Source: Flavobacteriales bacterium (GTDB taxonomy: Bacteria > Bacteroidota > Bacteroidia > Flavobacteriales > TMED113). Taken from it: a DNA stretch of 64,000 bases. The translations under genes and the position numbers were made by a program. The stretch lies in contig PAWM01000008.1 in assembly GCA_002714185.1 (NCBI GenBank), positions 67,091 to 131,090 of the forward strand, written 5' to 3'. Below are positions 9,738 to 27,873 of this stretch, one piece after another (positions within the stretch are counted from its first letter, which is position 1; each line of letters begins with the position of its first letter). Below the pieces are notes generated by a model. That model made no database searches. It had not been told where the DNA came from and saw only the letters and a program-made list of their open reading frames with translations.

Positions 9738-10824
9738 ATGTCATCATCAATAGGAACATTATTTAAGTTAAGTACATTTGGAGAATCTCATGGGTTAGCT
9801 ATTGGGGGAGTTATTGATGGTTGTCCATCAGGATTAAAGCTTGATTTCAAGTTGATTCAAGATTTTTTAAATAAGAGAAGACCTGGTTTAGGGTCATTGA
9901 ATAGTCAGCGTCAAGAGTTTGACAAGGTGGAATTTATGTCTGGAATATTTAATGACATAACTTTAGGTACACCTATTGGTTTCATAATTAAAAATATAGA
10001 TTCTAAATCTAAAGATTACGATAATCTAAAAAATATTTTTAGACCATCTCATGCAGATTTTACATATGAAAAGAAATATGGAATTCGCGACTATAGAGGA
10101 GGGGGGAGGTCTTCCGCAAGAGAAACTGCAAATTGGGTTGTTGCGGGTGCTATAGCATCCCAAATATTAAAAATAAAAGGTATTAATATATTTTCGTATG
10201 TATCCTCTGTTGGAGGGGTTGATATTAAAAAAAAAAATAAATAAATTTGATAGTGAATTAATTTATAATAATGATGTTCGTTGCCCTTGTCCTAAAACGG
10301 CACAAAAAATCAGAGAAATAATTGCAATTTGTAAATCTAAAGGAGATACGGTTGGGGGTTGTATTTCAACAGTTGTTAAGGGAGTTCCATTTGGTTTAGG
10401 TGAGCCTGTTTTTAATAAATTCCAATCAGGTATTTCTAAAGCAATTATGGGAATTAATGCATGTAAGGGTATTGCATTTGGTAGTGGATTCAGTTCTTCT
10501 TCAAAAACTGGATCTGAAGAAAATGATGCATTTATTGTAAAATCTGGTTCTGTGTCAACTAGTTCTAATAATTCGGGTGGTGTTCAAGGTGGAATTTCTA
10601 ATGGTCAAGATATATGTTTTCATGCTTCTTTTAAGCCTGTTTCTACAATTATGAAAAAGCAAAAAACTGTAGATGATAAAAATAATGAAATTACTGTTTC
10701 AGTATTTGGGCGTCATGATTCTTGTGTAGTGCCAAGAGCTGTTCCTATTGTAGAGTCTTTAACAGCAATAACTATATTAGATTATTATTTATTAAATAAA
10801 ACAACAAAAATATCAGATATATGA
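9738..10824 (+). CDS. aroC: Chorismate synthase, interrupted by a +1-nt frameshift in a poly-A run
   Basis: The two halves of one chorismate synthase lie in different frames. The first, 9738-10244, has [25 protein letters not shown] and [19 protein letters not shown]. The second, about 10235-10824, has [42 protein letters not shown] and [16 protein letters not shown]. They meet at an 11-A run (10227-10237); removing one A joins them as [12 protein letters not shown]. The joined protein is about 361 residues, normal for AroC, and every expected motif is kept. It makes chorismate from EPSP using reduced FMN. The shift may be a sequencing indel, a recent mutation, or one rescued by slippage. The 3' end overlaps the symporter gene (ATGA). 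Confidence 0.9.
10227..10237 (+). repeat. A11 homopolymer at the aroC frameshift
   Basis: Eleven consecutive A, the longest homopolymer I noticed in a coding region of this window. Ten A restore one continuous aroC frame; eleven lead to a TAA at 10242-10244. Confidence 0.9.
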
Positions 10825-15362: not shown

Positions 15363-15743
15363 TTATTTACAAATTGCAATAGCAGATATTTCTACATTAA
15401 CATTTTTTGGTAGGCAACTTACTTCCACTGTTTCTCTTGCAGGGTATGGTTCAGTAAAATAATTACCGTATACTTCATTAACAGATTTAAATAACTCCAT
15501 TTTAGATAAAAAGATTGTACATTTAACAACTTGGTTAAAAGTACAATTACATTCATGTAAAATGGCTTGTAAATTATTCATTACTATTTTAGTTTCTTCT
15601 TCAATATTTTTATTAATTAAATTATTTGTCTTTGGATCAATAGCAATTTGGCCTGAGATAAATATCATTTTACCACTTTTAATTGCTTGGCTATATGGTC
15701 CAATAGGTGAAGGAGCATTATTTGATTGTATTTTTTGTTTCAT
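15363..15743 (-). CDS. ridA: RidA-family enamine/imine deaminase
   Basis: 126 residues of the YjgF/YER057c/UK114 family, cytosolic trimers that hydrolyse reactive 2-aminoacrylate formed by PLP enzymes. Family features are SPIGPYSQAIKSGKMIFISGQIAIDP at the start, the active-site arginine in EPYPARETVEVSCLPK, and the terminal VEISAIAICK. Length is standard. Its start codon is only 32 bases from the divergent amidotransferase gene, so the two promoters must overlap or lie within the genes. Confidence 0.95.
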   Translation of the reverse strand: MKQKIQSNNAPSPIGPYSQAIKSGKMIFISGQIAIDPKTNNLINKNIEEETKIVMNNLQAILHECNCTFNQVVKCTIFLSKMELFKSVNEVYGNYFTEPYPARETVEVSCLPKNVNVEISAIAICK

Positions 15744-15775
15744 CTAAAAATATTTTATTGAAATTTACAAAATAT

Positions 15776-16339
15776 ATGAAACTACTAATAATTGATAATT
15801 ATGATTCTTTCACATTTAACTTGAAACATATGTGCGAACCATATGTTAGCAATATACATGTTGTGAGAAATAATCAAATTAATGTAAATGATATATTTAT
15901 TTATGATAAAATAATTATTTCACCTGGACCTGGTCTGCCTCAAGATGCTGGTTTATCTATCAACATTATTAATAAATTTGTTGGCATCAAACCTATTTTA
16001 GGTGTTTGCTTAGGTGCACAGGCCATTGCCGTTGCTTTTGATTTACCACTTTATAATTTAAAAAATGTTATGCATGGTAAAATGTCAAAAATTAAAATTT
16101 TACAATCAAATTCTACTATTTACAAAGGAATACCTAAAGAAATTAATGTTGGTAGATATCATTCTTGGGCAGTCAAAATTAATAATGAAGAGAAATTTTC
16201 AATAACATCATTAGATGAGCAAAATACAGTAATGTCCTTTGAGCATAAATTATACCCTTTAACGGGAATACAATATCATCCAGAATCAGTTTTAACAAAA
16301 TATGGTGGAAAAATATTAAAAAATTGGTTAAAAATTTAA
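15776..16339 (+). CDS. Glutamine amidotransferase subunit of anthranilate / aminodeoxychorismate synthase
   Basis: 187 residues from ATG 15776 (MKLLIIDNYDSFTFNL); a longer frame would run into divergent ridA. It is a class I glutaminase that supplies ammonia to TrpE or PabB. The triad is intact: nucleophile C78 in GVCLGAQ, and H168 and E170 in GIQYHPESVLT; the oxyanion-type loop SPGPGLP is at 49-55. The usual His after LG in the CLGHQ motif is Ala here, outside the triad. Without a trpE or pabB neighbour, TrpG and PabA cannot be told apart, and it may serve both. The stop overlaps convergent lptD by four bases. Confidence 0.9.
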   Translation: MKLLIIDNYDSFTFNLKHMCEPYVSNIHVVRNNQINVNDIFIYDKIIISPGPGLPQDAGLSINIINKFVGIKPILGVCLGAQAIAVAFDLPLYNLKNVMHGKMSKIKILQSNSTIYKGIPKEINVGRYHSWAVKINNEEKFSITSLDEQNTVMSFEHKLYPLTGIQYHPESVLTKYGGKILKNWLKI

Positions 16340-18693
16340 TAGTCGTAAAAATCTCTTTTTTTAGTTAATTTCAAATCTTGAAGGATAGATGATTTGACTC
16401 TAATTACAAAATTATAGCTTTGATGAAAACCAATGGGAATCCAGTTAAAAGTCATTTCCCAGCAATGTAAGTCTCTATAAACATCAATTGCAGTATATGT
16501 AAAATCTTTATTTTTAATATCATACCCAGACCTAAATCCAATTTTCCATTTATCTGTAATATTTAAATCACCGTTAAAATTAATTGATTGAATTAATTCT
16601 GAATCTAGTTGTGGTTTATTATATGAAAAATTATAAAAGAATCTTAATGACCAAGGAACTGTGAAGTCAACGAACTGGTCAAGATGCTGATTTATGTAAT
16701 CAAGTTCTTCTTTTGAACCATAATCAGATTGTTTTTTATTATCAGCATTATTTAAGTTTACACCAATATCAAAATTAAAATTTGTTAATCTGCCAACTTT
16801 ACCAGAAGAAATTAAATAATCATTTAATCTATTACCATCTTGATCCATTGCATATGGATCAATAATACTTCTTGCTTTAAAATCTATTTTATTCAATAAT
16901 TGTGTTCTTAGTTCAATATTAATTGTACTCATACTAAATTCATCAACAGTGTTATCATAATACCCTCCTATGTTTAGAGATTCAATTAATTTAATTTTTT
17001 TATCTTCTCCGTTTGTATTAACCTTCATTTCAAAATTATTATTGAAATTAAAACTTAACCTACTTTGTTTACTTGAGTTATATACACCATAGATGCCGAT
17101 AAGATTATTGGCTTCATCTTTAGACCAATCTGGTCTATATGTATAGCTTATAGATGGGGTAAATACATGTCTAAATTGTTTCTTTTTAGTAGCAAGAAAA
17201 CCATAAATTTTTGTACTTAACTGTGTAGAATACTGAAGGTCTCTTACTGCCCAAAAGCCTGTAATAGTATCTGAGTTTAGTGTGTTCAGTTTTTTAAAAT
17301 ACCATTTTTCATTATATCTTATTGAGGGGTTTATATTTATGTGCTTCAACAAATTAAAAGATGTTGAAATAGGAATAGAGTGTTGAGCTCCATTTCTCAT
17401 ATTATCTGTTATATTACTAAAAAGTAAGCTATCAGGTCTAGATAATGTATTTTTTGTATTTAATGTATAGCTAATTCCTAGATTTTTATACCATGTATTT
17501 TTAATTGTGTTTTTAAAAGGAAAAATTCTATTAACACTAAATGTTAACTCAGGTATGGTTAAGTCTACTTGTTTTGTTAGAGTATTCTGAGTGTGTCTTA
17601 AATTTACTGATAGATTATATGGTTTATTATCCCATTTTCTTCTAAAAGATATATTGGAAGATAATGTATTTTGCAAGTAATCAGTATTATATGAGTTATT
17701 TTGCATATATGAACTTGTAGCTAAATTTACTGAAGCTGAAAATTGATTATTTGGATGTGCTTTTTGATCTTGTTGATGGGTCCATTTAATTTTAAAGTCT
17801 TTAGATAAACTATAGTCATTTCTCCCAATTTCTCCAATTTTTGTTTTTGCAAAATTAATTTGAAGATTACCGTCATATTTATATCTTTTTTTATAATCTG
17901 ATATAATTCCAACTCTCCAACTTCCTCTGCTGTACAAATCACTATTTAATGATAAGTTAATATTATCATTGATACTGAAATGATAGCCAAATCCTCTTAA
18001 ATTATATCCTAGGTTATTAGATTGACCATATGTTGGTAAAATAAATCCTGAACTTCTTTGATTTTCAATTGGAAATATACCAAAAGGAATAAATAATGGA
18101 GTGGGGAAGTCAGCTAAAACTAGATTAGATGGACCAGTAATTATTTTTTCACCAGCAATTAGTTTGATTTTTTTTGAATTAATAAAAAAATGTGGTTCAT
18201 CTAGAGAACAGGTTGTATATTGTCCGTTTTTTAAATAATAAATTTTTTCATTTTCTTTTTTTATTTCTTTTCCATGAAGATAGCCTCCATCCTTTTCTGT
18301 AATAAGTTTCTTTATTGTAGCTTTTTTCGACTTATAATTATATTTGATTGTATCTGAAATGTATTCATCTCCTTTTTCTTTTAAAATAGGCCTTTGAGTA
18401 TAATCATTTAATGAATCCTTAATACCCGTAGCATAAATGATGTTGTTATTAAAATTGATTAATATAAATCCTGCTTTTAACTCAGTGTTTTTATAATTCA
18501 CTTGAGCATAATTATATAGCAAAACTTCATTTTTTTTTATATCGAATAATACTGAATCTTTTGCTGAATATATTATTTTATCCTCTTCATTGTTTTGAGA
18601 ATATAATACTTGTTCTTGTGAATATATATAATTCACAAAAATTAAAATTAAGAAAACAGCTATTTTATAAAATTTTCGTTCCAGTTTTATCAA
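16336..18693 (-). CDS. lptD: LPS-assembly outer-membrane protein LptD
   Basis: 785 residues. A signal peptide (MIKLERKFYKIAVFLILIFVNYIYSQ) is followed by an N-terminal OstA/LptA-like beta-jellyroll (about 40-150) and a long aromatic-rich beta-barrel region ending in FNFVIRVK. Diagnostic is the LptD core near 190-245: TTCSLDEPHFFINSKK, PLFIPFGIFPIENQRSSGF and LPTYGQSNNLGYNLRGFGY. It inserts LPS into the outer leaflet and usually pairs with LptE. No ATG precedes the signal peptide, so the TTG at 18693 is the probable start. An OstA/LptA-like gene is at 24690 and LptF/G at 48120. It is divergent from the amidase gene. Confidence 0.88.
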   Translation of the reverse strand: MIKLERKFYKIAVFLILIFVNYIYSQEQVLYSQNNEEDKIIYSAKDSVLFDIKKNEVLLYNYAQVNYKNTELKAGFILINFNNNIIYATGIKDSLNDYTQRPILKEKGDEYISDTIKYNYKSKKATIKKLITEKDGGYLHGKEIKKENEKIYYLKNGQYTTCSLDEPHFFINSKKIKLIAGEKIITGPSNLVLADFPTPLFIPFGIFPIENQRSSGFILPTYGQSNNLGYNLRGFGYHFSINDNINLSLNSDLYSRGSWRVGIISDYKKRYKYDGNLQINFAKTKIGEIGRNDYSLSKDFKIKWTHQQDQKAHPNNQFSASVNLATSSYMQNNSYNTDYLQNTLSSNISFRRKWDNKPYNLSVNLRHTQNTLTKQVDLTIPELTFSVNRIFPFKNTIKNTWYKNLGISYTLNTKNTLSRPDSLLFSNITDNMRNGAQHSIPISTSFNLLKHININPSIRYNEKWYFKKLNTLNSDTITGFWAVRDLQYSTQLSTKIYGFLATKKKQFRHVFTPSISYTYRPDWSKDEANNLIGIYGVYNSSKQSRLSFNFNNNFEMKVNTNGEDKKIKLIESLNIGGYYDNTVDEFSMSTINIELRTQLLNKIDFKARSIIDPYAMDQDGNRLNDYLISSGKVGRLTNFNFDIGVNLNNADNKKQSDYGSKEELDYINQHLDQFVDFTVPWSLRFFYNFSYNKPQLDSELIQSINFNGDLNITDKWKIGFRSGYDIKNKDFTYTAIDVYRDLHCWEMTFNWIPIGFHQSYNFVIRVKSSILQDLKLTKKRDFYDY

Positions 18694-18735
18694 ACTTTTA
18701 TTTATATTAATCGAATTAACATAATATTTTTGTAA

Positions 18736-19827
18736 GTGAAACGATTAATTCAATTATTTCTTGCACTTTTCATTGTTCATTCTTTTACTTATTTACATGC
18801 ACAGACTACAAATTTAGGTGTAAAAAAGATTGTTATTGACCCAGGACATGGTGGAAAGGATCCTGGAACTTTAGGGACAGGTCGCTATAAACAGGCAGAA
18901 AAAGATGTTGTTTTAGATGTATCTCTGATGCTGGGCAAATATTTAAAATCTGAATTCAGTGATGTTGAAGTAATTTATACCAGAGATACAGATGAATTTA
19001 TTAAGCTTTCTCAACGTACAAGAATTGCAAATGAAGCAAAAGCAGATTTATTTATTTCTATTCATTGTGATGCATTTAGGGATAGTAATGTATATGGATC
19101 TTCTACTTATGTTATGGGGATGCATAAAACTGAAAGTAATCTAAGTGTTGCAATTCGTGAAAATTCATCTATTTTAATGGAAAATGATTATGAAATGGAT
19201 TACGAGGGTTTTAATCCTGCTGAGCCTGAATCATATATTGCATTATCAATGTATCAATCTTCATATCTTTCCAATAGTTTATTAATTGCTTCTAAAATAC
19301 AAAGTCAATTTAAGAACAGAGTTAATCGTAAGGACAGAGGTGTTAAGCAAGCTGGTTTTCTTGTTTTAAGTAGAGCTACAATGCCAAGTGTTTTAATTGA
19401 ATTAGGTTTTTTAACTAACAAAAATGAGGAAGATTTTTTAAACTATGAAAAAGGTAAAGTTTATATGTCTTCTGCAATTTTCCGAGCAATTAAAGAATAT
19501 AAAATTGAATTAGAAGCTTTAATATTAGAAAGTCAAGACAAAACAAAATTTACTGATTTATCAAATCAGTTATTTTATAGTGTTCAATTTTTAACATCCA
19601 AATCTATGATAGATATAGAAAGTTTAGGTATTTCAAATGTTGATGTTATATATGAGTTTCAAGATAAAAATCAATATAAGTATTCTTATGGAAAAGTTGA
19701 GACTTTAAAAGAAGTAAATCTACTCAAAAAAGAATTAAGATCTTATGGATTTCACGATTGTTTTACAATAGCAATATTAAATGGTGAAAAAATGTCTTTG
19801 TCTGATGCATTATCAATTTTAAAGTAA
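18736..19827 (+). CDS. N-acetylmuramoyl-L-alanine amidase (Amidase_3 family)
   Basis: 363 residues. A signal peptide (KRLIQLFLALFIVHSFTYLHAQ) is followed by the zinc amidase domain (about 30-255). Zinc ligands are H38 (VIDPGHGGKDPG), E55 (QAEKDVVLDV) and H110 (FISIHCDA), and the catalytic Glu is E222 (IELGFLTN). It cleaves the bond between MurNAc and the stem peptide in the periplasm. The C-terminal 100 residues (TDLSNQLFYSVQFLTS onward) look like a SPOR-type domain. The start is GTG at 18736. It heads a plus-strand run through 23789. Confidence 0.93.
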   Translation: MKRLIQLFLALFIVHSFTYLHAQTTNLGVKKIVIDPGHGGKDPGTLGTGRYKQAEKDVVLDVSLMLGKYLKSEFSDVEVIYTRDTDEFIKLSQRTRIANEAKADLFISIHCDAFRDSNVYGSSTYVMGMHKTESNLSVAIRENSSILMENDYEMDYEGFNPAEPESYIALSMYQSSYLSNSLLIASKIQSQFKNRVNRKDRGVKQAGFLVLSRATMPSVLIELGFLTNKNEEDFLNYEKGKVYMSSAIFRAIKEYKIELEALILESQDKTKFTDLSNQLFYSVQFLTSKSMIDIESLGISNVDVIYEFQDKNQYKYSYGKVETLKEVNLLKKELRSYGFHDCFTIAILNGEKMSLSDALSILK

Positions 19828-19859
19828 TTTTATTATCTTAACTTAAAATCATCTTAATT

Positions 19860-20753
19860 GTGAATAAATCAAAAGAATTAATAATAGGTATTTTTGCATG
19901 TATTTCTCTAGCAATTCTATACTGGGGTATCAATTTTTTAAAAGGTGAAAATGTTTTTTCACAAAAAAATGTTTTTTATGCTGTATATGAAAATGTTGAC
20001 GGATTAACTATATCTCGTCCAGTTACTGTAAATGGATTTAAAGTAGGACAAGTATCAAATATTAATTTACATTCTAAACAAATTGCAGATTTAATTGTTG
20101 AAGTAACTATTGAAGAGGATATTAATTTTTCTACAAGTTCTTTGTTAGAAATTTATGATTCAGATATTTTAGGTGCTAAATCCTTAGAATTAATAATGAT
20201 TCAAGGTGCAAAGATTGCTCAAAGTGGTGATACATTAAAGGGTTCAATTGCTACAGGATTAACCAGTGAAGTTAGTGAGCAATTTGGATCTGTTAAAGTT
20301 GGTCTTGATCAATTAATAATCTCATTTGATAAAGTGTTAAAAGAAGTTAAAGATTTGTCTAATACTGCAAATCGAATTTTACTTAATAATGAAGAAAAAC
20401 TAAACACAAGTATATATAGTATAGAATCTATTGCTTCTGAAATTGATAATCAAGCAATTAATATTAACAATATAATAGATAATTTATCTTCATTTACAGA
20501 CACTCTTAATTCTATTGATGTCCATTCATTTTCAAATAAAATAATAAATATTTCAAATCAATTAGAAATGATGTTAGTACAATTAAATAAAGGGGATGGT
20601 AGTTTAGCAAAAGTTTTAAATGAAGATTCAATTTATATTGATTTATCAAATACAATTAAAAGTATGGATGAATTGTTAAATGATGTAAGACAAAATCCAA
20701 AAAAATATATTAATATATCTTTATGGGGTGGTGACAAGAAAAATGCAAAGTGA
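19860..20753 (+). CDS. MCE/MlaD-family lipid transport protein
   Basis: 297 residues, GTG start. One N-terminal transmembrane anchor (ELIIGIFACISLAILYWGINFL) is followed by a single MCE domain at about 38-118 (FYAVYENVDGLTISRPVTVNGFKVGQV, SLLEIYDSDILGAKSLELI), and then by a long polar helical tail. MCE proteins form periplasmic hexamers that move lipids between inner and outer membranes. No MlaE/MlaF ABC partners are adjacent, which is usual in flavobacteria. It follows the amidase by 32 bases and precedes the Fe-S genes. Confidence 0.9.
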   Translation: MNKSKELIIGIFACISLAILYWGINFLKGENVFSQKNVFYAVYENVDGLTISRPVTVNGFKVGQVSNINLHSKQIADLIVEVTIEEDINFSTSSLLEIYDSDILGAKSLELIMIQGAKIAQSGDTLKGSIATGLTSEVSEQFGSVKVGLDQLIISFDKVLKEVKDLSNTANRILLNNEEKLNTSIYSIESIASEIDNQAININNIIDNLSSFTDTLNSIDVHSFSNKIINISNQLEMMLVQLNKGDGSLAKVLNEDSIYIDLSNTIKSMDELLNDVRQNPKKYINISLWGGDKKNAK

Positions 20754-20768
20754 AATTATCTTTAGTTT

Positions 20769-22085
20769 ATGAATTTGATAAGTAATTTTATTTTTTTATT
20801 TATACTATCATTTAGTTTAATTCTTTTTTATAAAAATATTAAAAAGATTATTGACAATATTAATCTTGGTAAACCTGGTAAGGATATTGATAATACTAGG
20901 AAGAGATGGAAAAAAGTTTTTTTTATTGCTTTTGGCCAATCTAAAATGTTTAAGAAACCGCTTGTTGCAATATTACATTTAATTGTTTATGCAGGATTTG
21001 TTATTATCAATATTGAAATTTTAGAAATCATCATTGATGGTGTTTTTGGTACTCATAGAGTTTTTTCCTTTTTAGGAGGATTCTATAATTTTCTTATCGG
21101 GTCTTTTGAAATCTTAGCTCTTTTAGTGTTAGTATCTTGTGTTATTTTCTTGATAAGAAGAAATATTTTAAGGATAAAAAGATTTTGGAGTCCTGAAATG
21201 AAAGGTTGGCCGACATCAGATGCTAACTTAATTTTGATTTTTGAAATATTATTAATGTCGGCTTTTTTATTTATGGATGCAGCTGACTTAATTTTACAGG
21301 AAAGAGGACATTATATGCAAGCTGGAAGTTTTCCTGTAAGTCAATTAATTATTTCTCCTTTTTTAAATGGATTATCAAATTCAGCACTTATATTTATTGA
21401 GCGTTTTTGTTGGTGGTTTCATATTATTGGAATTTTTGGCTTTCTAAATTATTTGGTAATATCTAAACATTTACATATTATTTTAGCTTTCCCTAATACC
21501 TTCTATTCAAATTTAAATCCTAAAGGTCAATTTAATAATATGGTTTCAGTTACAAATGAAGTAAAAATGATGTTAGATCCAAATAGTGATCCATATGCTT
21601 CAAATAATGACAATGTTAATTCCGATGTTTTTGGTGCTAAAGATGTTAAAGATTTAAAAAGAATTCAATTATTAAATGCATATTCTTGTACAGAATGTGG
21701 TCGTTGTACCGCAGAGTGTCCCGCAAATGTTACAGGTAAAAAATTATCTCCAAGAAAAATTATGATGGATGTTCGTGATAGAGTGGAGGAGGTAGGTAAA
21801 AATATTCGTAAATCAGGATTAGACTATGATGATGGAAAATCTTTATTAAATGATTATATCACAAAAGAAGAGATATGGGCTTGTACATCATGTAATGCAT
21901 GTGTGGAAGCTTGTCCAATTAGTATTGATCCACTTTCAATTATTATGGAATTAAGGAGATTTTCAGTAATGGAAGAGTCTAGTGCCCCAACTGAAATAAA
22001 TACAGTGTTTTCAAACATAGAAAATAATGGTGCTCCCTGGCAATTTCCTGCTTCTGATCGTTTAAAATGGAAAGATAATGAATAA
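20769..22085 (+). CDS. Membrane-bound 2[4Fe-4S] protein, HdrC/GlpC-like
   Basis: 438 residues. The N-terminal half has about five membrane segments (around 5-22, 63-90, 100-130, 152-175 and 205-240). The soluble C-terminal part holds two ferredoxin-type clusters: C307-x2-C310-x2-C313-x3-C317 (SCTECGRCTAECP) and C372-x2-C375-x2-C378-x3-C382 (ACTSCNACVEACP). Together with the CCG-domain protein at 22502 it resembles a quinone-linked heterodisulfide-reductase-like electron carrier. The electron donor and acceptor are not known from sequence. A HAD gene sits between the two Fe-S genes, overlapping this one by eight bases. Confidence 0.88.
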   Translation: MNLISNFIFLFILSFSLILFYKNIKKIIDNINLGKPGKDIDNTRKRWKKVFFIAFGQSKMFKKPLVAILHLIVYAGFVIINIEILEIIIDGVFGTHRVFSFLGGFYNFLIGSFEILALLVLVSCVIFLIRRNILRIKRFWSPEMKGWPTSDANLILIFEILLMSAFLFMDAADLILQERGHYMQAGSFPVSQLIISPFLNGLSNSALIFIERFCWWFHIIGIFGFLNYLVISKHLHIILAFPNTFYSNLNPKGQFNNMVSVTNEVKMMLDPNSDPYASNNDNVNSDVFGAKDVKDLKRIQLLNAYSCTECGRCTAECPANVTGKKLSPRKIMMDVRDRVEEVGKNIRKSGLDYDDGKSLLNDYITKEEIWACTSCNACVEACPISIDPLSIIMELRRFSVMEESSAPTEINTVFSNIENNGAPWQFPASDRLKWKDNE

Positions 22086-22500
22086 AAAAGTACAACTAAT
22101 TAATAAAGTAATTGAGGGTAAATATATTAGTCCTGTTTTACCAAAGAATACAAAAAATTATCTTATAGATATAGATGGAACTATTTGTGATGATATTCCA
22201 AATGAAGAGCCTGAAAGAATGTTACATGCAAAATTATATCCTGAAGCTCTTAAAACTTTAAATAAATGGTATAATGAAGGACATATTATTACTTTTTTTA
22301 CATCAAGATTAGAAGATCATAGAGATGTTACTGAAAAATGGTTAGATAAAAATGGATTTAAATATCATGCTTTATTAATGAATAAACCAAGAGGAGGTAA
22401 TTATCATTGGATAGATAATCATATGGTTAGAGCTACTAGATACGAGGGTAATTTCACAGATTTAGTTGAAAAAAATGTTAAAATTCAAGTTTTTAAATAA
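22078..22500 (+). CDS. HAD-like hydrolase, small
   Basis: 140 residues with a compact HAD core: D31-x-D33-G-T (LIDIDGTICDD), motif II FFTSRLEDHRD near 80, and NKPRGGNYHWIDNH towards the end. Flavobacterial relatives are often annotated as phosphoheptose isomerase, which the motifs do not support; a phosphatase or nucleotidase is more likely. It is embedded between the two Fe-S genes, with an eight-base overlap upstream and one base between its stop and the next ATG, so it is translated with them. The substrate is unknown. Confidence 0.85.
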   Translation: MNKKVQLINKVIEGKYISPVLPKNTKNYLIDIDGTICDDIPNEEPERMLHAKLYPEALKTLNKWYNEGHIITFFTSRLEDHRDVTEKWLDKNGFKYHALLMNKPRGGNYHWIDNHMVRATRYEGNFTDLVEKNVKIQVFK

Positions 22501-22501
22501 T

Positions 22502-23281
22502 ATGGATTTACAAGTAAAAACAATGTTAGATTGGAAGAATGAAGGAGTAAATCCTGAAATATTATTTTGGGTTGGATCTGCTGGAAGTTTTGATGATAGA
22601 GCAAAAAAAATTACTAGAGCTTTTGTAAAGATAATGAATAAGGCAAATGTCCAATTCGGAGTGTTAGGTGTTGAAGAAACAGCAAGTGGTGATGTAGCAA
22701 AACGTGCAGGTAATGAATTTCTTTTTCAAATGCAAGCAATGATGAATATTGAAGTCATGAATAATTACAATGTGAAACAAATTGTAACTACTTGTCCACA
22801 TGATTTCAATACTATCAAAAATGAATATAAATCATTAGGTGGTACTTATGAAGTTTATCACCATACAGAGTTTATTTACAAATTAATTAAAGATAAAAGA
22901 TTTGTACTTTCTAATAATATTAGTGGAAGAAAAATAACTTACCACGACCCTTGTTACTTGGGTAGGGGAAATAATATTTTTGATGCACCTAGAAAATTAA
23001 TTAAACTTTTAGGTTTAGATTTAATTGAAATGAAGCGATCTAAGGCTACATCTTTTTGCTGTGGAGCTGGAGGAGCCCAAATGTTTAAAGAGCCAGAAAA
23101 GGGCATAGAAGACATTAATATAAACAGAACCAGGGAAGCTTTAGCTACAAAAGCTAATATTATTGCTACTGGTTGTCCATTTTGCAATACTATGATTAGA
23201 GATGGAGTTAAATATTTAGACGAAGATTCTGCAGAAGTTCTTGATATTGCAGAATTAATTTCTGATACAGAACAATTATAA
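22502..23281 (+). CDS. CCG-domain Fe-S oxidoreductase subunit (HdrB/GlpC-like)
   Basis: About 259 residues from ATG 22502 (MDLQVKTMLDWKNEG); an in-frame ATG at 22466 lies inside the HAD gene. It has two cysteine-rich CCG-type modules: an atypical first one around TTCPHDFNTIKNEY, with YHHTEF following, and a clear second one with YHDPCYLGRGN, SFCCGAGGAQM and TGCPFCNTM. Such domains bind non-cubane or [4Fe-4S] clusters in heterodisulfide reductase and relatives. It is the soluble partner expected for the membrane Fe-S protein at 20769. Confidence 0.88.
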   Translation: MDLQVKTMLDWKNEGVNPEILFWVGSAGSFDDRAKKITRAFVKIMNKANVQFGVLGVEETASGDVAKRAGNEFLFQMQAMMNIEVMNNYNVKQIVTTCPHDFNTIKNEYKSLGGTYEVYHHTEFIYKLIKDKRFVLSNNISGRKITYHDPCYLGRGNNIFDAPRKLIKLLGLDLIEMKRSKATSFCCGAGGAQMFKEPEKGIEDININRTREALATKANIIATGCPFCNTMIRDGVKYLDEDSAEVLDIAELISDTEQL

Positions 23282-23282
23282 T

Positions 23283-23789
23283 ATGAAACTTTCTAATTTT
23301 TTGTCTAATAATAAAAGTGATAGAATTTTTATATTTCAATCCTCGGTTAGATTAAATGTTAAACAACTTAAATTTATTAATGATGCATTAAAGAATGGTT
23401 TTTTTCCAAAATGGGCATCTCACAGTAAAAAATTAAATCCAGAATTATTATTATTATGTAATCACTTTATAGTTATTTCATCTTGTGAAGATAGGATCTC
23501 TGGTTGCTCAATGGATAGTTTGTCAAGAGAAATGAAAAAAATTGCTTCTGATTTATGTATTGAATTATTCGATAGAATGAATATAGCTACTTGTGTAATG
23601 ACGAATAATCAAATTAAATCAGTTGATGAATTAAATACTATGCACATAGATATTGTAAAATATAGATACTTAATAAATAATTATGACAATACAAAGAAGA
23701 ATTTGTTTGTATTTGATAACACCATTACTAATGCTGAGGACAATTGGATTATTCCATTTAAACAATGGTTCCTAAAGAATAAAAGTTGA
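23283..23789 (+). CDS. Conserved flavobacterial protein of unknown function (often mislabelled ABC transporter ATPase)
   Basis: 168 residues, soluble, no signal peptide. Recognisable features are the early RIFIFQSSVRLN, then FIVISSCEDRISGCSMDSLSREM and DLCIELFDRMNIATCVM. I recall similar proteins of about 160 residues at this place in flavobacterial genomes that carry an ABC transporter ATPase label, yet there is no Walker A, Walker B or signature motif here, so that label should not be used. It begins one base after the CCG Fe-S gene and ends the run that a terminator closes. Function is unknown; by position it may belong to the Fe-S cluster. Confidence 0.75.
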   Translation: MKLSNFLSNNKSDRIFIFQSSVRLNVKQLKFINDALKNGFFPKWASHSKKLNPELLLLCNHFIVISSCEDRISGCSMDSLSREMKKIASDLCIELFDRMNIATCVMTNNQIKSVDELNTMHIDIVKYRYLINNYDNTKKNLFVFDNTITNAEDNWIIPFKQWFLKNKS

Positions 23790-23814
23790 TAGTATTTTTT
23801 ATATAATTTAAATC

Positions 23815-23844
23815 AAAAAAAAAGGGCTCAAATGAGCCCTTTTT
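23815..23844. terminator. Bidirectional intrinsic terminator
   Basis: A 9-bp perfect stem AAAGGGCTC / GAGCCCTTT with an AAAT loop, flanked by an A run on the left and a T run on the right. It lies between the convergent ends of the gene at 23283 and the beta-barrel gene at 23867, so it can end transcripts from both sides. Confidence 0.93.
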
Positions 23845-23866
23845 AATGTATTTACTTTGTTCTTAA

Positions 23867-24550
23867 TTAAAAGAATAAGCTAAAGTTTACACCTGCAATA
23901 AACTCAGAACCTGAAAGGTCTGTAGTTTCTGCACTACCCATTAAACCAGTACCTGGTTTAACATTTTCACCATCAACAATTAAGTCTAAGTGAACATAAG
24001 GTTCAACAGCGAAGTGTTCTCTCCATACTAATGTGTAACCCATACCTAATCTTACATTAGAGTGCGATGTTCTTTCTTGAACAACCATATTTTGAGTTAC
24101 AGGACCTGTTGCTGTGTAAGAAGTTACTTCATCCCACTCTTCGTCTTGTGAAGTTGTACTACTTAAACTTACTTCCATAAATAAATTTCGTGCTGCATAA
24201 TATCTTGCAAATACACCAAATTTTCTTATGTTGTCAGTAAGAGTGTAGTCACCATGTGCACCTACTGTTGTTGGTACTGGTGGAGTTCCTACTAATTGAG
24301 TGTAACCTGGAAAAGCAGGGTAGTACTCATCATCAGTATCAAAATGAATTTCAGCACCAATTGCTAAACCATCTTGAATAAAGTAACCAATTTTTGGAGT
24401 TAGTGACCAATTTGTCCATGCTCTTTCATCAACAGCATTGCCAGAAAATTCACTACCTGCACCTAAAAGTACAGTTCCTTTTTTTGTTTGAGCGTTTGCA
24501 GAAAATGTTATCAAACATAAAGCAGCAAACATTAAAATAAACTTTTTCAT
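23867..24550 (-). CDS. Outer-membrane beta-barrel protein (OmpX/OmpA-like porin family)
   Basis: 227 residues. A clear signal peptide (MKKFILMFAALCLITFSANAQ) is followed by alternating aromatic strands typical of an eight-stranded barrel: WSLTPKIGYFIQDGLAIGAEI, RKFGVFARYYAARNLFMEVSL, VRLGMGYTLVWREHFAVEPYVHL, with the terminal strand GSEFIAGVNFSLFF ending in Phe. The coding sequence looks less AT-rich than its neighbours, and it has its own promoter and terminator, so strong expression is likely. The role is probably structural or adhesive; no ligand can be read. Confidence 0.88.
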   Translation of the reverse strand: MKKFILMFAALCLITFSANAQTKKGTVLLGAGSEFSGNAVDERAWTNWSLTPKIGYFIQDGLAIGAEIHFDTDDEYYPAFPGYTQLVGTPPVPTTVGAHGDYTLTDNIRKFGVFARYYAARNLFMEVSLSSTTSQDEEWDEVTSYTATGPVTQNMVVQERTSHSNVRLGMGYTLVWREHFAVEPYVHLDLIVDGENVKPGTGLMGSAETTDLSGSEFIAGVNFSLFF

Positions 24551-24581
24551 AGTAATAATAATTATATAATTTTCTTAGTTA

Positions 24582-24620
24582 ACAGGAACAAATATATATT
24601 AAAAAAACTATTACAGGAAC
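24582..24620 (-). promoter_or_regulatory. Promoter and direct repeats upstream of the beta-barrel gene
   Basis: A -7 box TATATTTG (24596-24589 on the minus strand) has CTG, one mismatch from TTG, 17 bases upstream. It predicts a start near 24582 and a leader of about 31 nt. An 8-bp perfect direct repeat, ACAGGAAC on the plus strand, occurs at 24582-24589 and 24613-24620. The copies are 31 bp apart (about three helical turns) and flank the promoter core, which would suit a regulator binding two sites. Confidence 0.45.
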
Positions 24621-24689
24621 TTTTTTTCAATTTATTACATATTTTTTATTAAAAAACCTCTGTTAAACAAAAACCTTAATCTGTTAAAA

Positions 24690-27873
<3,184 letters not shown>

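Follow-up and report, generated by a model that had tools for sequence, protein, structure and literature searches.

Introduction

The closest described relative of the system reported here is the mycobacterial EtfD (Rv0338c / MSMEG_0690; PMC13083937, PMC8593149). EtfD is a membrane protein that passes the electrons of fat breakdown on to respiration; as described there, it is a single chain with a five-helix cytochrome b domain, two 4Fe-4S clusters (D3 and D4) and two CCG domains. Its structure from Mycobacterium smegmatis, PDB entry 9OJN, is described as that of an electron transfer flavoprotein (ETF):menaquinone oxidoreductase, and which of its clusters accepts the electrons of ETF is stated as open in PMC13083937. 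We analysed a 64,000-nucleotide stretch of DNA (hereafter the window) from a Flavobacteriales bacterium (NCBI GenBank assembly GCA_002714185.1, contig PAWM01000008.1, positions 67,091 to 131,090 of the forward strand). A cluster of six genes at positions 18736-23789 of the window encodes, among others, two iron-sulfur (Fe-S) proteins, FeS1 and FeS2, which probably constitute a two-subunit form of this enzyme.

Other described enzymes share some of its traits. Bacillus subtilis FadF and Pseudomonas aeruginosa DgcB, which we compared by description, are said in PMC13083937 to be without the cysteines of cluster D1, and cluster D2 is suggested there as a possible initial acceptor. They resemble the window pair in this absence, whereas in the window a HAD gene separates the genes of two subunits. 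FadF has a link to beta-oxidation, and the genome of the window contains a FadE-like gene that scores above the cut-off of a model named for Bacillus FadE. The Syntrophus ETF:methylmenaquinone oxidoreductase (EMO; PMC8805022), also compared by description, is proposed to catalyse the same reaction, from ETF to a menaquinone; it is reported as diheme, whereas the residues checked in the window pair fit the single heme b of 9OJN. The methanogen heterodisulfide reductases (Hdr) HdrDE and HdrBC are multi-subunit enzymes with homologous ferredoxin-like and CCG domains. HdrDE is cut between its cytochrome and its Fe-S part. In the window, by contrast, membrane and ferredoxin-like parts share one chain and the CCG part stands alone, with an EtfD-type His at cluster D2.

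EtfD is already known. No recognised account of a two-gene EtfD in Bacteroidota was found in the literature searched, for which full-text coverage was partial. The two-gene form cut between ferredoxin and CCG domains, its linkage to a small downstream gene (last) and to an amidase-MCE gene pair, and the existence of a D1-less clade therefore appear to be new, on what is weak evidence because of that partial coverage.

The Fe-S pair matches the two halves of EtfD

FeS1 (20769-22085, + strand) contains a cytochrome b membrane domain and two [4Fe-4S] sites (Fer4_9, E 4e-12). FeS2 (22502-23281, + strand, the start being taken as the ATG at 22502 and not a TTG upstream) is a CCG-domain protein (E 1.2e-23). 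When compared with PDB sequences, each protein gave one outstanding match, in both cases 9ojn_A (E 2e-39 for FeS1 and 2e-69 for FeS2), the next-best being heterodisulfide reductase and fumarate reductase subunits; 9OJN was the sole EtfD entry among the solved structures returned by these searches. FeS1 covers residues 44-333 and 404-476 of 9OJN, and FeS2 covers residues 496-742. Because these matches follow each other in order and do not overlap, the pair matches, at the level of sequence, an EtfD divided where its ferredoxin-like part gives way to the CCG part. FeS2 ends where its match ends, at EtfD residue 742, whereas the mycobacterial chain runs to residue 1042, with 778-1042 disordered in the structure as described. 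The membrane part of the FeS1 model (mean predicted local distance difference test score, pLDDT, 78.1) contains five long helices. Superposed on 9OJN, the model aligns 395 residues at 3.3 A (Z 26.9; Foldseek E 4.0e-12), the runner-up chain being an HdrC with a Z of 9.5.

We read FeS1 and FeS2 as together forming a two-subunit ETF:quinone oxidoreductase of the EtfD type and put the probability of this reading at about 0.84; the complex and its electron transfer would follow from the homology. The initial annotation of the cluster had presented the pair as a heterodisulfide-reductase-like electron carrier and had considered a quinone as a possible acceptor. Both points agree with our results, while its statement that the function of the pair was unknown gives way to the match with a two-subunit EtfD.

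Conservation of cofactor and quinone-site residues

Residues named in PMC13083937 were mapped by hand onto FeS1 and FeS2 from pairwise alignments. In FeS1, the heme histidines (H70 and H236), the quinone-site phenylalanines (F77 and F225, equivalent to Phe85 and Phe230 of EtfD) and the eight cubane cysteines of D3 and D4 (C307, C310, C313, C317, C372, C375, C378 and C382) are all present in the window protein and invariant in the 23 and the 33 aligned FeS1 sequences. In FeS2, the D2 ligands (H100, C151, C186, C187, C225 and C228) are kept in each of the 158 sequences compared, whether FeS2 or fused, the window included; this set contains near-copies (L089 and L034 are apparently the same record). 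H100 aligns with His583 of EtfD and is a His in all 158 sequences. In Hdr, the same position is a bridging Cys according to PMC13083937; this Hdr-type Cys at the noncubane cluster is absent from the FeS2 of the window, which has the EtfD-type His instead. Heme, quinone-site, D2, D3 and D4 residues of the mycobacterial enzyme, as named there, are thus kept in the window pair.

The cysteines of D1 behave differently from the D2 ligands. All four (Cys503, Cys538, Cys581 and Cys584 of EtfD) are found in 125 of the 158 sequences, while the other 33 have lost two or more, the counterparts of Cys503 and Cys584 being gone in every case; no sequence has lost exactly one. In this set, D1 is lost as a unit and D2 is never lost. 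The window belongs to the D1-less group: its FeS2 has Ser, Ala, Cys and Asp at the four positions, and the linear [3Fe-4S] ligand set of a D1-bearing, mycobacterial-type EtfD is not found in the window. This series of D1 and D2 ligands agrees with D2 as the first acceptor, short of proving it.

Several independent losses of D1 were considered and are unsupported, since the 33 D1-less sequences need only two changes on a tree built with the D1 columns masked; one of these two changes lies in a divergent set from family f9 (see below). There may have been a single loss of D1 inside Flavobacteriales. Among the named D1-less loci (L089-L092, L094, L098, L099, L101, L103, L115, L139, L141 and L151), those with a genus name (Tenacibaculum, Polaribacter, Muricauda, Wenyingzhuangia, Winogradskyella and others) come from genera known as marine. 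Loss of D1 might save iron, though perhaps only one or two events are involved.

Split and fused forms of EtfD

A sample of 148 genomes of the phylum was searched for FeS2 matches. A match to FeS2 was found in all 37 genomes of the class to which the window belongs, and in these, as well as in three genomes of family f30, the FeS2 frames are no longer than 341 residues (in G117 a stop codon lies inside the match). Outside the class, 41 genomes carry single frames of 665-731 residues (E 1.0e-118 to 1.9e-97), and at loci L190-L194 and L196 both domain models fall on one frame. After the fused gene of G116 come a peptidase-like gene and then etfB- and etfA-like genes (the etf names were given by eye). 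In at least 11 of the 148 genomes, namely ten of genus g71 plus G187, EtfD and an ETF match share a strand and are no more than about 3 kb apart.

These data bear on another reading of the pair, as an enzyme of the Hdr, LdhH or GlpC kind whose partner would be a thiol, lactate or glycerol phosphate and not ETF. Such enzymes share domains with FeS1 and FeS2, and NCBIfam models such as TfrB, LdhH, DsrK and GlpC give matches, none of which reaches its cut-off. EtfD is nevertheless by far the best solved relative, the D2 position has the EtfD-type His and not the bridging Cys described for Hdr, and ETF genes stand near fused homologues. We hold this reading to be very improbable.

In four genomes of family f9 (G019, G032, G043 and G051; loci L077-L080), a divergent EtfD-like pair with 33-35% identity occupies the slot after mce; at L077 and L079 it also comes after lptD and amidase genes, and the L077 frame is 606 residues long. 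The same genomes have two or three ETF matches each, with the top ETF scores among the 60 relatives described next. The divergent pair looks like a replacement in place.

ETF, fatty-acid oxidation and quinones

Sixty relatives of the window's genome were examined for possible partners. FeS2 was found in 51 of them, closely matched in 47 and represented in the other four by the divergent f9 set, and an ETF domain was also found in 51. Among 44 well-covered relatives (completeness of 90% or more, contamination of 5% or less), the presence of EtfD and that of ETF agree in 42, with both in 37 and neither in 5, the divergent f9 pairs being counted as EtfD. The domain of the mitochondrial/alphaproteobacterial type of ETF-QO (Fer4_ETF_QO, PF05187) was found in none of the 60 relatives, the window's genome included, and was detected in 3 of 14 control genomes. 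EtfD is the sole candidate for an ETF-to-quinone route found in these relatives. The window's genome contains two ETF matches (EtfAB) and four acyl-CoA dehydrogenase matches. It also has an operon that encodes an acyl-CoA ligase, a FadB-type protein, a thiolase and a FadE-type protein; the thiolase and FadE matches exceed curated cut-offs.

Several observations weigh against the EtfD reading. For the proteins themselves, no NCBIfam model among those listed matched FeS1 or FeS2 above its cut-off, the heme-propionate Arg150 of EtfD aligns uncleanly with FeS1, the window protein retains one D1 cysteine of four, and the wider EtfD-related family includes enzymes with other substrates. For ETF, two well-covered relatives disagree: G027 has EtfD without ETF and G031 has ETF without EtfD, although G031 is also without MCE and last-protein matches, which suggests that this stretch is perhaps missing. 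The relatives with neither, five in number, belong to only two families (f12 and f16), so that few independent events are represented. In the phylum sample, 147 of 148 genomes have ETF and 94 match EtfD strongly (E of 1e-49 or below), so that many genomes outside the class must use another route; ETF-QO was searched in the 60 relatives. For the quinone, MenD was found in none of the 12 genomes of the window's own family f1 (several of them incomplete), nor in f8 (0/5), f11 (0/5) or f14 (0/2); it is present in other families of the order. A scan of about 921 of the 1524 kb of the window's genome (roughly 60%) revealed no MqnC/MqnE-like radical-SAM motif; of its two hits, one was a lipoyl-synthase-like frame and the other was due to chance. 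The EtfD of the MenD-less families keeps the quinone-site residues.

On the EtfD reading, acyl-CoA dehydrogenases would reduce EtfAB, which would hand its electrons to D2 in FeS2; from there they would pass to D3 and D4 in FeS1, then to heme b and finally to a membrane quinone. Since the cut separates the ferredoxin-like domains from the CCG domains, FeS2 would have to dock on the membrane-bound FeS1. With D1 presumably absent from the window's clade, D2 would be the entry point, as PMC13083937 suggests for FadF and DgcB. Homology, ligands, gene order, EtfAB and fatty-acid oxidation genes are all observed; we infer the electron transfer, the complex, the use of quinone and the history of the cluster.

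This assignment gives a concrete and testable function to an Fe-S pair conserved in 37 of 37 genomes of the class and 47 of 60 relatives. The homologues with and without D1 ligands, and a CCG half that exists as a separate chain without membrane segments, make the question of the entry cluster accessible by reconstitution.

Organization of the gene cluster

The six open reading frames are all on the + strand and tightly packed, with gaps of 32 bases between amidase and mce, 15 between mce and FeS1, 1 between the HAD gene and FeS2 and 1 between FeS2 and last, and an overlap of 8 bases between FeS1 and the HAD gene. The first encodes an N-acetylmuramoyl-L-alanine amidase (18736-19827; Amidase_3, E 2e-53) with an export-signal-like N-terminus (hydrophobic segment 4-22). 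The second encodes an MCE/MlaD protein (19860-20753; MlaD, PF02470, E 2.9e-11) with one N-terminal membrane segment (residues 4-27). They are followed by FeS1, a small HAD-type hydrolase gene (22078-22500), FeS2 and last (23283-23789). An lptD-like gene (16336-18693, - strand; LptD_2, E 4.1e-141) diverges from the amidase gene. The cluster is closed by a terminator-like hairpin at 23819-23844, which was found on both strands, lies between convergent genes and has a stem of 11 pairs, 5 of them G-C. These 11 pairs are the most among the terminator-like sites listed for the whole window (1-64000), the runners-up having 10. No such site was found within the cluster in a scan of 15500-27000; the three sites found in the cluster region are not above chance (shuffle mean 2.5). 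The packing of six co-directional genes, the strongest terminator of the window and the identity of the amidase and MCE proteins all stand as first annotated. Further downstream, an OstA/LptA-like gene lies on the opposite strand.

A conserved order made of two modules

Gene order was compared at 47 orthologue loci from the 60 relatives, at the best 80 of 587 confirmed named loci (Flavobacterium, Chryseobacterium, Tenacibaculum, Maribacter, Aquimarina and others; the choice of the best 80 makes this set lean to Flavobacteriales) and at loci drawn from 20 genomes of the class's other orders. Denominators are the loci with enough flank, and the f9 genomes (FeS2 match 33-35%) were left out of the relative loci and tallied apart, L077 entering that tally without an FeS2 label. 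With an allowed gap of -80 to 450 bases, mce directly precedes FeS1 at 45/45 relative and 74/74 named loci, an arrangement which is for this reason not due to chance, and at 2/17 loci of other orders. The amidase gene precedes mce at 39/45 relative and 64/72 named loci, and lptD diverges from it at 37/38 and 57/60. The last gene lies within 300 bases of FeS2 at 31/44 relative, 59/77 named and 11/19 other-order loci, and within 1.4 kb at 35/44, 69/77 and 15/19, respectively. The order mentioned for flavobacterial genomes in the initial annotation thus recurs across Flavobacteriales, beyond close relatives.

At the scale of the class, all 17 genomes of the order have the MCE gene directly upstream of EtfD, compared with 2 of 20 in the rest of the class, while last is within 1.4 kb downstream of FeS2, by coordinates, in 30 of the 37 class genomes. 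In the other orders, the amidase gene directly precedes mce without EtfD nearby at 8 of 11 loci (L237-L240, L243, L245, L247 and L248, and not L244, L246 or L250), and in the relative G022 the amidase-MCE pair is present without EtfD or ETF. Because amidase-MCE and FeS1-FeS2-last separate in the other orders and in G022, we regard the cluster as two modules, the first beside lptD, which would have been joined in Flavobacteriales.

The initial annotation had offered a redox step serving envelope lipids or quinones as one possible explanation. A shared envelope-redox function was rejected as the leading interpretation, since the modules separate in other orders: MCE and EtfD are apart in 18 of 20 genomes there, and EtfD travels with last instead. 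A more specific version would make the cluster one functional unit, in which an MCE/Mla system retrieves outer-membrane phospholipid, its fatty acids are burned, EtfD passes on the electrons and co-transcription couples both processes. The invariable adjacency of mce and FeS1 in relative and named loci speaks for it, and so do data on MCE. As in Mla systems (MlaD/E/F), the cluster has an MCE domain protein, and genes for an MlaE permease and an ABC ATPase exist elsewhere in the genome, the one MlaE gene, followed by the ATPase gene, being at G000:C14, away from the cluster; unlike in Mla, the MCE gene is next to an amidase gene and not to an mlaE-like gene. MlaE is present in 51 of 60 relatives. 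The cluster MCE is the only MCE match in the window's genome, both with PF02470 and with a profile made from this MCE, and for this reason is the likely MlaD partner of MlaE. PF02470 is found exactly once in 47 of the 60 relatives, twice in four (G013, G028, G040 and G055) and in none of another nine; the profile of the cluster's own MCE gives up to six matches in some other genomes of the order. Moreover, four f6 genomes (G016, G029, G040 and G056) have MlaE, an acyl-CoA dehydrogenase and the cluster together in a stretch of about 20-23 kb. Against these points stand the separation of MCE and EtfD in 18 of 20 other-order genomes, and the amidase-mce pairs without EtfD nearby, at 8 of 11 loci and in G022. 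On balance, we think it improbable that the six genes form one functional unit.

The order could also be a frozen accident of slow rearrangement, meaningless in function at every level. The independence of the amidase-MCE and EtfD modules elsewhere in the class would be compatible with this. However, the genes beyond lptD and beyond last vary between families while the inner order is constant, elsewhere a single frame carries both FeS1 and FeS2 as domains, and last is near FeS2 in 30 of 37 class genomes. At every level, such an accident seems to us rather unlikely; it fits the junction of the modules only.

The frames inserted into the cluster are lineage-specific. A secreted- or lipoprotein-like frame of about 175-210 residues is found between FeS2 and last at L095, L106 and L131, and one of the same kind and size between the HAD gene and FeS2 at L049, L051, L064 and L066.

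The HAD enzyme and the last protein

The HAD gene lies between FeS1 and FeS2 at 32/47 relative, 29/77 named and 0/17 other-order loci, and across the tallied loci its best match is sited nowhere else. Being often absent, the enzyme is placed outside the electron path, and it would be a dispensable gene inserted into the EtfD module and not an integral part of it. Its HAD-type Pfam match is modest (5.9e-07). Among HAD models, those of the acid-phosphatase type, LNS2 and the BT0820 type match modestly or weakly, and the enzyme also matches a phage family labelled phosphoheptose isomerase.

The last protein has no Pfam, NCBIfam or PHROG match; it is a class-wide partner gene without a family in the libraries searched. 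Six residues (F40, W44, H47, G74, C75 and D78) are invariant in 58 sequences, which suggests a functional site. Its model, predicted with fair confidence (pLDDT 86.3), looks like a ferredoxin-type alpha/beta fold. No PDB match was obtained at E <= 0.001, and the best VIA Z, 7.9, is within background; such background-only matches are no evidence for a new fold.

The gene is present in 45 of 60 relatives. A role as a strict EtfD subunit is weakened by G022, which has last without EtfD and ETF. Outside the class, it is near EtfD in none of 14 matching genomes (including a weak match in G127, 1.1e-4), and no FeS2 match is listed for G062, G067, G085, G105, G111, G138, G148 or G199, which have last; the long-frame match at L199 looks like an artefact of a GC-rich frame. 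Away from EtfD, its neighbourhoods lack a common theme: the gene follows cytochrome-oxidase-like genes at L205 (6131-6598) and a CcmA-like ATPase gene at L204 (6129-6725), all named by eye, and L203 and L206-L208 differ from both. That it is a respiratory-chain biogenesis or docking factor is a guess with little support.

One could extend this guess to a salvage-and-burn unit of Flavobacteriales, in which the amidase would open a path through peptidoglycan, the sole MCE protein would return phospholipid, the co-transcribed two-piece EtfD would send fatty-acid electrons to respiration and the last protein would be an assembly or docking factor replacing the C-terminal extension of mycobacterial EtfD. 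We consider this highly speculative and its chances slim.

Elsewhere in the window, a chorismate synthase gene (named by eye; 9738-10824) is split over two overlapping + strand frames, 9738-10244 and 10198-10824, a pattern suggestive of a frameshift or an assembly error.

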